From positions 1-44,035 of the IMG/VR virus record IMGVR_UViG_3300030098_004159: DNA of 44,035 nt; one strand, 5' to 3'. This stretch comes from a virus. This document shows, piece after piece, positions 20,519-24,985 of the stretch; position 1 is the stretch's first letter, and each line of letters opens with the position of its first letter. A model generated the notes under the pieces. The model saw only the letters and a program-made list of their open reading frames with translations, ran no database searches and was not told the DNA's origin. A program made the position numbers and the translations under genes.

Positions 20519-20684
20519 TAAACCTGAGTCTCTCGTAGTAGAGAGTGAAAGAGCTAAACCAACTAAGTTTACATCTAGAGCAAACATAGGACCAGATCCT
20601 GATCTAGTAACAACATTTGGTTTAGGAAACCTAAAAGTCACCACCGCTAAAGGAATTAAACATGACGGAAAAACTAACGTATGA
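20457..20684 (+). CDS. Small basic protein between portal and scaffold, 75 aa
   Basis: ATG 20457 lies inside the portal gene and the stop lies 23 bases inside the scaffold gene. The N-terminal half is basic (ASRPQKVAKKPLPKVSK), and the C-terminal half (SRANIGPDPDLVTTFGLGNLKV) looks like a defined segment. It fills a gap of 143 bases that would otherwise be empty, which supports it being real. Function unknown; a role in head assembly is suggested only by position. Confidence 0.6.
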   Translation: MDKIKASRPQKVAKKPLPKVSKPESLVVESERAKPTKFTSRANIGPDPDLVTTFGLGNLKVTTAKGIKHDGKTNV

Positions 20685-21455: not shown

Positions 21456-21644
21456 ATGTCTAAAGCTTATGATCCCTCAGCACGAAATAATGCTATGAGG
21501 GTAAAATATAAAGTCAATACTACAGGTGATCGTTGGTTTATACCATACAATGACGCTGGAACTACAGCTGCTCAAGTAGCTCAATGTAATAAACTCGTTG
21601 GCAAAACAGCTAACGGTACACAAGACGCAGGAGGAGAACAGTAA
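21456..21644 (+). CDS. Small hypothetical protein after scaffold, 62 aa
   Basis: Starts two bases after the scaffold stop. It is a small soluble protein (SARNNAMRVKYKVNTTGDRWFIPYND, then AAQVAQCNKLVGKTANG) with an amphipathic helix in the second half. Its stop overlaps the next micro-gene (TAATG), and an AGGAGG site for that gene lies within its last codons. Function unknown. Confidence 0.6.
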   Translation: MSKAYDPSARNNAMRVKYKVNTTGDRWFIPYNDAGTTAAQVAQCNKLVGKTANGTQDAGGEQ

Positions 21645-21703
21645 TGCCAAGAGGTAAAGGAACTTATTCTAAACCCGGTAGACCACCAAAACCTAAAAAG
21701 TAA
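21644..21703 (+). CDS. Basic micropeptide MPRGKG type, 19 aa
   Basis: ATG 21644 follows AGGAGGAG closely and the peptide begins MPRGKGTYSKPGRPPKPK. Small peptides of this MPRGKGTY...GRPPK type recur in marine cyanophage head-gene regions, which suggests it is real. It is basic and Pro/Gly-rich. It is the last gene before the hairpin at 21706-21760. Confidence 0.55.
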   Translation: MPRGKGTYSKPGRPPKPKK

Positions 21704-21760: not shown

Positions 21761-21964
21761 ATGACAGTAACAACTGAATATGGGAAACAAAATATTTTCC
21801 CAAAAGAAATACCAGCGAGAGTTATCGCTGACTACCCTACAAACATCAACCCTATTATGACAAACGAAGCAGAAAGATTTAACGGCTGGGCAGCAATGCT
21901 TGGTTTCGTTGCAGCTATCGGAGCTTATGTTACAACAGGACAAATCATACCCGGAATATTTTAA
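21761..21964 (+). CDS. hli: High-light-inducible protein (Hli)
   Basis: A 67-aa single-span thylakoid protein that binds chlorophyll/carotenoid and protects photosystem II. The family signature [20 protein letters not shown] is complete at residues about 37-56, with the E-x-x-N-G...A-M-x-G-F chlorophyll-binding pattern, followed by GQIIPGIF. The N-terminal 35 residues are soluble. It overlaps psbA as TAATG, so the two are co-translated. This is a cyanobacterial auxiliary gene. Confidence 0.96.
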
Positions 21965-23040
21965 TGGCAGCTATCTCACTACAAGATACCCAAACTAATT
22001 GGGAGAGTTTCTGTAATTGGGTAACATCAACTAACAACAGAATTTATGTTGGTTGGTTCGGCGTACTTATGATACCCGCACTTTTAACAGCAGCAACTTG
22101 TTTTATTATTGCCTTCATCGCTGCACCCCCTGTGGATATTGATGGCATACGTGAACCCGTTGCAGGATCTCTTTTATATGGTAACAACATCATCTCAGGA
22201 GCAGTGGTCCCCAGCTCCAACGCCATCGGATTGCACTTCTACCCAATATGGGAAGCAGCAACCCTCGACGAATGGCTCTACAATGGCGGACCTTATCAAC
22301 TCATCGTTTTCCACTTCCTTATCGGTGTCGCAGCTTACATGGGACGCCAATGGGAACTTAGTTATAGACTCGGAATGCGACCATGGATAGCAGTAGCATA
22401 TTCAGCACCATTATCTGCAGCAGCAGCTGTGTTTCTCGTTTACCCATTTGGGCAAGGGAGTTTTAGTGATGGTATGCCTCTTGGTATCTCTGGTACTTTT
22501 AACTTTATGTTCGTATTCCAAGCAGAACACAATATCCTTATGCATCCGTTCCACATGCTCGGTGTTGCTGGGGTATTCGGTGGAGCTTTGTTCGCTGCTA
22601 TGCATGGAAGTCTCGTTACGTCTTCACTTTTGCGTGAGACTACTGGTCTTGAGTCGCAGAATTATGGCTATAAATTTGGTCAAGAAGAAGAGACTTATAA
22701 CATCGTTGCAGCTCACGGTTACTTCGGTCGCTTAATTTTTCAATATGCTTCTTTTAATAATAGCCGTGCTTTACATTTCTTTCTCGGTGTTTGGCCCGTC
22801 GTTGGCATATGGCTTACCTCTATGGGAATCTGCACAATGGCTTTCAACCTTAATGGATTCAACTTTAACCAATCCGTTGTTGATGCTAATAGTAAAGTTG
22901 TCCCAACATGGGGTGACGTTTTAAACCGTGCCAATTTAGGTATGGAAGTCATGCATGAAAGAAACGCACACAATTTTCCACTTGACTTAGCATCTGCTGA
23001 GTCTACTGAGGTTGCATTAACAGCTCCCTCATTAGCATAA
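21964..23040 (+). CDS. psbA: Photosystem II D1 protein
   Basis: A full-length D1 (358 aa) with its five membrane helices. It keeps electron flow and ATP production going during infection by replacing damaged host D1. Signature segments: [43 protein letters not shown] (broken only for this note), [29 protein letters not shown] and a C-terminal extension after Ala343 that is cleaved on maturation. Numbering runs one below the canonical scheme. The residue at canonical position 130 is Gln (GRQWE), the low-light D1:1 type. No intron or frameshift. It is followed by a riboswitch-like RNA. Confidence 0.98.
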
Positions 23041-23046
23041 TTGCCA

Positions 23047-23110
23047 CGTCCGTTCATCCCTTACGGGACGCAGGTGATCTGACCATGGAACGGGGGTCAG
23101 GTACTGAGGA
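23047..23110 (+). promoter_or_regulatory. Glutamine riboswitch-like RNA (Downstream-peptide motif)
   Basis: The fold matches the Downstream-peptide/glnA class, shown to bind glutamine. P1: CCGTTC (23050-23055) pairs with GAACGG (23088-23093). P2: TCCC-TTAC-GGGA (23057-23068) forms the inner hairpin. Between them is GCAGGT, and a pseudoknot joins CTGACC (23079-23084) to GGTCAG (23095-23100). A ribosome site (GAGG, 23106-23109) and the ATG of a 33-aa peptide (23116) follow, as the class name implies. Ligand binding should stabilise the pseudoknot and limit translation of the peptide; this last step is inference. Confidence 0.85.
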
Positions 23111-23115
23111 TAATT

Positions 23116-23217
23116 ATGACTCAAGTAGAACTACAAGCTCGAATCAAAGAGCAAAGAGATCACGCTAGATTACAATTACTTAAGTATCGTGGCATAGAGT
23201 ACACCAAAACAAAATAG
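23116..23217 (+). CDS. YRG-type small peptide under the riboswitch, 33 aa
   Basis: ATG 23116 follows GAGG by 6 bases and lies 15 bases after the riboswitch pseudoknot. The product is a charged helix (TQVELQARIKEQRDHARLQLL) ending in KYRGIEYTKTK. The YRG-x-x-Y end resembles the short cyanobacterial DUF4278 family (typically xYRGVxY). The riboswitch plus this peptide is the expected Downstream-peptide arrangement. It may act as a nitrogen-responsive regulator like other riboswitch-controlled cyanobacterial peptides; function not proven. Confidence 0.75.
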   Translation: MTQVELQARIKEQRDHARLQLLKYRGIEYTKTK

Positions 23218-23304
23218 TACTCAGCTGTGCGTAACCACATTAAACTATGGCCGGACAGTATGGCGGAACCATGCATACCGGTGACACACTAATAACTATT
23301 TATT

Positions 23305-23784
23305 ATGGCTTTTAATCAAAACGCTTCAGCAGGTCAGGTAGTCTTTTCTGCTCAGGAGCCAATCACTAAAGTTGTTTTAGCTAACCAAGATGTAACCAGT
23401 TCAACTACTCTTGCAGATGTAACTGATCTTACAATCAGAATTGGTAAGTATGAAAGAATTAACTTTAAGTATAATATTTTCTATACAACAGCTGCAGCTG
23501 GTGATTTTAAATATCTAATTGATACTCCTGCTAGTTTAACAACTTACCGTGTAGCTCAAAACGGTTGCGACCACGCTGGTGCGGCTTTAGCTTCTATCAT
23601 CACAGCTGAAGGTAGTGCTATTGCAATAACAGCTTCAGGTACTGATGGTTGTTTACAACTAACAGGTACTATTGAAAACGGTGCAACAGCTGGAGACCTT
23701 AAGTTCTCCTTTGCACAGAATACTTCAGACAGTACAGCAGCAACTGTACGTGAAGGTTCAAGCGTTCAATACTATCGCTTCTAA
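23305..23784 (+). CDS. Beta-rich structural protein upstream of capsid
   Basis: A 159-aa protein dominated by beta strands and small residues (FSAQEPITKVVLANQDVTSSTTL, then LTIRIGKYERINFKYNIFYTTAAAGDFKYLIDTPASL). The pattern of Thr/Ala-rich turns and a K-Y-...-F-K-Y strand pair is common in phage decoration or virion surface proteins. It lies between psbA and the capsid gene, which supports a head component. There is an 87-bp leader with a possible hairpin upstream. The exact role is not identifiable. Confidence 0.6.
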   Translation: MAFNQNASAGQVVFSAQEPITKVVLANQDVTSSTTLADVTDLTIRIGKYERINFKYNIFYTTAAAGDFKYLIDTPASLTTYRVAQNGCDHAGAALASIITAEGSAIAITASGTDGCLQLTGTIENGATAGDLKFSFAQNTSDSTAATVREGSSVQYYRF

Positions 23785-23968: not shown

Positions 23969-24985
23969 ATGGCTAACGCTACACAGTCGGTACTTGGTGC
24001 TTTGAATAAAGCGGTATCTAATACTGCTGGATCTCAGGCATATGATACTAAGTATGCGACCTATCTAAAGCTGTTCTCAGGTGAGCTATTTAAAGCTTAT
24101 GAGTCAGCAACTATAGCACGTGACACCGTGCAAAGGCGTACCTTGAAGAACGGTAAATCATTACAATTCATCTTCACAGGACGCATGCAAGCGGCGTATC
24201 ACACACCCGGGGAGCCTATCCTTGGAAGTGGTGATCCTCCAGTAGCTGAGAAAACTATACAATGTGATGACCTATTAATTAGTTCAGCATTCGTATATGA
24301 CTTAGATGAAACACTTGCACATTACTCTCTACGCTCAGAGATCTCTGCTAAGATCGGTCATGCTTTGGCTGAGGCTTATGATAAGAAAGTGTTTAGAACT
24401 ATTGCTAAAGCAGCAAGAGAAGCACATCCTATCACAGCATCACCCGGACCAGAACCCGGTGGTACACAGATCGAGCTAGGTGTAACTAAGGAGTATAACG
24501 CACAAGCACTTGTTGATGCTTTCTTTGAAGCAGCTGCAGTTCTTGACGAAAAAAATCTCCCAAAAACTGGACGTACTGCGATACTTAATCCAAGACAATA
24601 CTATGCCTTGGTATCACAGGTTTCTTCTAACATCTTAAACAGAGACTATGGTAACTCACAAGGTAACCTTAACTCTGGTGAAGGTCTAGTTGAAATTGCT
24701 GGTATTCAGATCAAGCGTTCAAACAACCTACCTTTCCTAGCTGGTACAGTTAATGGACAGTCAGGTGAAAACAACGATTACTCTGGTGACTTCTCAACTC
24801 ATTGCGGTCTTATCTATCAAAGAGATGCTGCAGGTATTGTAGAAGCAGTTGGACCTCAGGTTCAAGTAACAGGCGGAGATGTGTCCGTTTTATACCAAGG
24901 TGACGTTATGGTTGGTAGACTTGCTATGGGTGTAGGAACTCTAAACCCAGCAGGTGCAATAGAATTAACTTCAGCACGTAGCTAA
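23969..24985 (+). CDS. Major capsid protein (T7 gp10-like)
   Basis: A 338-aa capsid subunit (T7 gp10A is 345) between scaffold and tail genes. The N-terminal arm ends in KLFSGELFKAYESATIARDTVQRRTLKNGKSLQF, followed by the HK97-like P-domain helix region (EISAKIGHALAEAYDKKVFRTIAKAAREAH), and a C-terminal GDVSVLYQGDVMVGRLAMGVGTLNPAGAIEL. No long gp10B-type extension is seen. It makes the T=7 shell. No strong ribosome site. Confidence 0.95.
   Translation: MANATQSVLGALNKAVSNTAGSQAYDTKYATYLKLFSGELFKAYESATIARDTVQRRTLKNGKSLQFIFTGRMQAAYHTPGEPILGSGDPPVAEKTIQCDDLLISSAFVYDLDETLAHYSLRSEISAKIGHALAEAYDKKVFRTIAKAAREAHPITASPGPEPGGTQIELGVTKEYNAQALVDAFFEAAAVLDEKNLPKTGRTAILNPRQYYALVSQVSSNILNRDYGNSQGNLNSGEGLVEIAGIQIKRSNNLPFLAGTVNGQSGENNDYSGDFSTHCGLIYQRDAAGIVEAVGPQVQVTGGDVSVLYQGDVMVGRLAMGVGTLNPAGAIELTSARS

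Follow-up and report, generated by a model that had tools for sequence, protein, structure and literature searches.

What does a structured RNA, placed between a photosynthesis gene and a tiny reading frame, do for a virus of marine cyanobacteria? The question is raised by the window, by which we mean the whole 44,035-nt stretch of viral DNA analysed here (IMG/VR record IMGVR_UViG_3300030098_004159), in which the psbA stop codon at 23040 lies 10 nt before the aptamer core CGTTCA. The initial annotation had correctly placed the element directly after psbA. It had also described a ribosome site and a short YRG peptide behind the RNA, and both are present: a GAGG at 23106-23109, and an ORF at 23116-23217 that encodes MTQVELQARIKEQRDHARLQLLKYRGIEYTKTK. 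This ORF starts 13 nt past P2, so that the aptamer is positioned 5′ of a short ORF, as is characteristic of the RF01704 class. The features of the locus are:

21964..23040, + strand: psbA (photosystem II D1), the gene upstream of the aptamer (ORF of 358 aa; PF00124, E 1.4e-86; phrog_182)
23048..23102, + strand: glutamine-II riboswitch aptamer (RF01704, 55.5 bits; covariation, n = 32 phage aptamers)
23051-23055 with 23088-23092, + strand: aptamer PK
23057-23060 with 23065-23068, + strand: aptamer P1
C23071:G23093, + strand: long-range pair of the aptamer
23077-23084 with 23095-23102, + strand: aptamer P2
23106..23109, + strand: Shine-Dalgarno-like GAGG, 6 nt 5′ of the start codon (direct reading; start-codon spacing)
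23116..23217, + strand: gene for a 33-aa YRG micropeptide with a DUF4278-like core, YRGIEY (ORF; purifying selection among homologues)
23969..24985, + strand: major capsid protein, a conserved landmark 3′ of the cassette (PF21703, E 2.5e-84; synteny)

The window also contains an unannotated basic 19-aa ORF at 21644-21703, MPRGKGTYSKPGRPPKPKK, which overlaps the end of the preceding ORF and has relatives, MPKGKGTYGTKKGRPPKK, in phage loci (23 occurrences, 12 versions). A 22-aa ORF at 23247-23315, MAGQYGGTMHTGDTLITIYYGF, overlaps the start of the next gene and is kept in several near relatives.

Searching the whole window with Rfam cmscan gave a sole match, to RF01704 (Glutamine-II, or "Downstream-peptide"), which is full length at 23048-23102 on the + strand and scores 55.5 bits (E 6.8e-11) against a gathering cutoff of 33 bits. 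The Glutamine-I family, RF01739 (glnA), had no match in the window at its gathering threshold. The initial annotation had named the RNA Downstream-peptide/glnA and proposed such a scan: the first half of the name is right, whereas glnA denotes a different class (type I). Its idea that the phage carries a nitrogen sensor is supported. The base pairs are as it described them, but their names differ from those of the crystal-structure paper, in which CCGTTC/GAACGG (its "P1") is the PK and CTGACC/GGTCAG (its "pseudoknot") is P2. Within the window there is a single instance of the core pattern CGTTCA..CGCAG..CATGGAACGG, which none of 100 shuffles reproduced. The glutamine contacts of the crystal structure (C1, G18, C39 and G40; PMC6698751) all have equivalents here, namely C23051, G23070, C23091 and G23092. 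Nested folds of the window were not unusually stable (z of -0.84 and 0.02), pseudoknots lying outside the model used.

The pairing, which the initial annotation had left open to refutation by its loss in relatives, is kept. In an alignment of 32 divergent phage aptamers, there is no variation at the five PK pairs or the long-range C:G pair, P1 and P2 covary strongly, with two-sided changes at two and seven pairs, respectively (nine in total), and 95.8% of cells are paired. Invariance of the PK strands and of CGCA partly reflects how the aptamers were chosen, because the collecting pattern fixed both; P1 and P2 were left free. The covariation score was 0.361, compared with 0.113 ± 0.014 for shuffled alignments and at most 0.072 when pairing partners were slid by 1-3 columns. 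The sequence evidence thus supports a working aptamer in the window, one that would bind glutamine. Variants at 327-388 of locus L254 and 2693-2750 of locus L290 are changed jointly at two otherwise invariant places (CGTTCA to CGTTCG, and CGCA to TGCA) and still exceed the RF01704 cutoff.

Among equal-length phage peptides, pN/pS was 0.21 in the frame of the ORF, versus 1.26 and 2.12 in the wrong frames, and it was 0.25 after the start, Y, R, G and Y codons had been left out. The invariance of YRG itself is by selection of the data, since cassettes were retained only with a YRG ORF. Of 109 distinct phage cassettes, 104 have their start codon 22-26 nt downstream of GAACGG. We conclude from the substitution pattern that the phage YRG peptide is under purifying selection. 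The phage peptides range from 14 to 60 aa; many are cut to 14-21 aa around the YRG motif, and many near relatives have the core alone, e.g. MTVKLKYRGVTYTKTI. DUF4278 (PF14105) matched the window peptide weakly and partially (14.3 bits; cutoff 25.3) and exceeded the cutoff for the peptide of relative L239 (31.2 bits). This partial match was all that Pfam returned for the 33-aa window peptide, in which there is no IF7-like inhibitory part. In an AlphaFold2 model of the window peptide (mean pLDDT 79.6, pTM 0.42), residues 3-22 form a helix and the YRG site forms a short hairpin behind it. No relative of the host YRG protein was found among solved structures. A few records, e.g. S-TIP28 and S28-C3, annotate the peptide as a hypothetical protein. 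It lacks annotation in S-CBP1 and in P-SSP7, where a 17-aa peptide, MKVTFVYRGVAYTRVIG, is encoded just after the aptamer at 20522-20575 of AY939843.

How widely is the unit kept, and beside which genes? Scanning 2.9 million viral contigs for the pattern gave 93 stretches; with four annotated phage records added, 87 passed a stricter core filter, and L021, L037 and L059 were then dropped as GC-rich false matches, leaving 84 cassettes. T7-like portal, scaffold, capsid or tail-tube genes adjoin 81 of these on the same strand. We detected psbA in the flank of 15 of the 84, and, because many loci are short, a missing psbA is in some cases missing from the covered flank alone. In a survey from the capsid side, covering 52 capsid relatives with >1300 nt upstream (including the window and the near-identical L073), the cassette was found in 50 (46 by pattern and four more as above-cutoff variants) and psbA homologues in 37. 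When 25 T7-like cyanophage records, four picked for encoding the peptide and the others by capsid similarity, were searched whole, 16 had an above-cutoff RF01704 match and a 17th a weak one. The records with a match include P-SSP7, P-SSP2, P-GSP1, NATL1A-7, NATL2A-133, P-SSP10 and S-RIP1, with a single copy per genome. Although the unit is of host type, its retention by many cyanophage genera and by 50 of 52 capsid relatives, together with compensatory changes and purifying selection, means that we give almost no credence to a match by chance or to a host fragment captured recently and now decaying.

Within T7-like cyanophages the unit occupies the scaffold-to-capsid interval. In many phages a gap of 7-23 nt separates the stop codon of the preceding gene from the aptamer, which is therefore most likely read within a longer transcript. 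In the window that gene is psbA, and its stop codon is close enough for the element to be a psbA 3′ UTR device acting in stability or termination. However, most cassettes have no adjoining psbA, and in others 100-400 nt or other genes intervene between psbA and the aptamer, which makes such a device very improbable. The same observations go against the link to the photosynthesis cassette drawn in the initial annotation, and we rejected a psbA-linked function as a general reading: many relatives keep the unit ahead of the capsid gene without psbA alongside, and it is not a psbA accessory. Its position ahead of the capsid gene, which divergent phages share, would instead suit a riboswitch that mainly controls that gene, or the remaining late transcript, with the peptide as leader only. 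We consider this unlikely, given that the capsid start is about 0.35-1.5 kb 3′ of the unit with other genes between, that the start-codon spacing is tied to the peptide, and that the peptide is under purifying selection, which a leader sequence usually need not be.

One phage, S-CBP3 (L299, KC310803.1), has a YRG peptide, MSIQVTYTYRGVKYTKTVNR, at the equivalent place with no type II match. Its leader at 1993-2038 is more like type I (glnA), at a score below the cutoff (21.7 bits versus 35; 16.1 bits for RF01704). This may be an aptamer-class swap before the same YRG gene.

A scan of bacterial genomes gave at least 120 copies, nearly all from Prochlorococcus and Synechococcus among the matches listed. 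The order of aptamer, short leader and YRG peptide, and the aptamer class, are the same in the phages as in the RF01704 and DUF4278/Yfr6 units of Prochlorococcus and marine Synechococcus; MED4 has a known Yfr6 peptide of 33 aa (PMC1242208, PMC2518516). The surroundings differ, the phage copies lying in a structural gene block without the upstream box or the motif repeats of the host copies. Of 110 distinct host flanks among the matches listed (L099-L218), 93 have a GTAN8TAC box that starts 17-22 nt 5′ of the aptamer. It was found in 3 of 107 flanks from the phage collection, among them that of L032, where T7-like genes are absent and the peptide is host-like, and there is none beside the window aptamer. 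We take GTAN8TAC to be the NtcA consensus. Its frequency among the host flanks listed suggests that the host peptides are under combined control by NtcA (2-oxoglutarate) and glutamine.

Phage peptides have one YRG, whereas host peptides among the matches listed mostly have two or three YRG/YRR motifs. This difference and the trimming of many phage peptides around the motif would fit a decoy, in which a single-YRG peptide competes with host multi-YRG DUF4278 proteins for a partner and so keeps nitrogen assimilation high for phage production. We regard pure competition of this kind as possible but rather unlikely, since many phages conserve an N-terminal helix, which suggests a role beyond bare competition. 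On the most economical reading, the phage peptide would either mimic host YRG peptides in nitrogen control or compete with them.

Binding of glutamine activates expression from host type-2 switches (PMC6316151, PMC6698751), and the authors of the structure proposed that PK formation competes with a structure that blocks the RBS (PMC6698751). In 28 representative phages, the 5′ flank adjoining the aptamer shows complementarity to the ribosome site immediately behind the aptamer, as in GTAGACTCCA with TGGAGTCTAC (L006), TGATCTCCG with CGGAGATCA (L036) and TCTCCATA with TATGGAGA (L024). Matched flanks of these 28 paired at -9.96 kcal/mol, versus -6.88 kcal/mol for flanks swapped between phages (0 of 5000 permutations). 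In the window's group, with 32 flanks, the values were -5.92 and -5.71 kcal/mol, and 1164 of 5000 permutations were as good as observed. These groups were set by the bases before CGTTCA, after the per-phage results had been seen. We conclude that an anti-RBS helix is a good candidate for the expression platform in some clades; we do not claim it for the window, since the permutation test was negative in its group. Host flanks paired with the RBS less than shuffled flanks did, the duplex test alone being weakly positive (26 of 5000). A CGTCC/GGACG anti-aptamer hairpin, picked by eye in the window's group, was dropped because the flank stays constant when P1 changes (L241, L243).

The aptamer class itself is already known, and the Rfam model detects the T7-like cyanophage copies. 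Phage-borne glutamine aptamers have likewise been reported in T4-like cyanophages, methylophages and pelagiphages (PMC9964418, PMC9602691, PMC9004378). Those are glnA (type I) where the type is stated and precede other genes, e.g. ssrA, whereas in the T7-like phages described here a type II aptamer precedes a YRG peptide. We found no report of a glutamine riboswitch in T7-like cyanophages in the open-licence literature, and one may have been described elsewhere. In Synechocystis, the gifB/IF17 switch (PMC6316151) also places a DUF4278-containing protein under a glutamine aptamer, but that aptamer is type I and the protein is a full IF17 with the IF7-like inhibitory part that the phage peptide lacks. 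In IF17, DUF4278 spans the N-terminal part, which promotes stability but is not needed to inhibit glutamine synthetase (PMC6316151). For this reason support for a nitrogen role of the peptide is weak, and, as the peptide has no IF7-like part either, the label "glutamine synthetase inhibitor" would go beyond the evidence.

T4-like cyanophages also carry a compact element resembling a glutamine aptamer, CGTTCATCCC..GGGACGCAAGTA..GGAACGGA, at 153427-153474 of KJ019042.1 and 168591-168638 of KP211958.1 (1501-1548 of L345 and L346) and in loci L348-L467. In these two isolates it scores 22-31 bits, below the RF01739 and RF01704 cutoffs, and the ORF behind it belongs to phrog_504, a family of unknown function. 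The pattern occurs in at least 120 viral stretches. Among the matches listed, every stretch has a second CGTTC ≤25 nt away, which lies directly before an ATG in 96 and opens a second aptamer in 21. The CGTTC before ATG may be a competitor strand for GAACG.

We think it likely that the cyanobacterial-type glutamine-II aptamer and its YRG ORF are a lineage-wide gene of T7-like cyanophages, encoding a glutamine-ON peptide with a role in nitrogen control. Because the same pair precedes the capsid gene in most relatives, these viruses probably tune a tiny protein to host nitrogen status. Most likely, glutamine switches on translation of the DUF4278-like micropeptide during infection; binding, expression and target are what we infer, and glutamine control in infection can reasonably be inferred from tested host homologues (PMC6316151, PMC6698751). 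The unit would be transcribed together with its neighbouring genes. High host glutamine would then stabilise the pseudoknot, freeing the ribosome site so that the peptide is made, an ON switch like the host type-2 switches. The peptide, a single YRG hairpin that may be preceded by an N-terminal helix, would act where host DUF4278/Yfr6 peptides act, in the control of nitrogen assimilation, as a mimic or competitor of the multi-YRG host proteins. More tentatively, the lineage may read host glutamine by RNA and answer with a micropeptide, of 14-19 aa in some phages, that resets host nitrogen assimilation in infection, the NtcA layer having been dropped and the RNA sensor kept, and some clades having built an anti-RBS helix from sequence 5′ of the aptamer. 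If this is true, the 14-19 aa peptides would be among the smallest genes under riboswitch control.

Most of the T7-like cyanophages examined carry the unit, with the peptide mostly unannotated, and among them is P-SSP7, a laboratory model with Prochlorococcus MED4. As a minimal and strongly conserved form of the YRG/DUF4278 peptides of marine picocyanobacteria, the phage unit should make the function of these peptides easier to test. If the unit works as proposed, these phages would sense the nitrogen status of their host directly and act on it.
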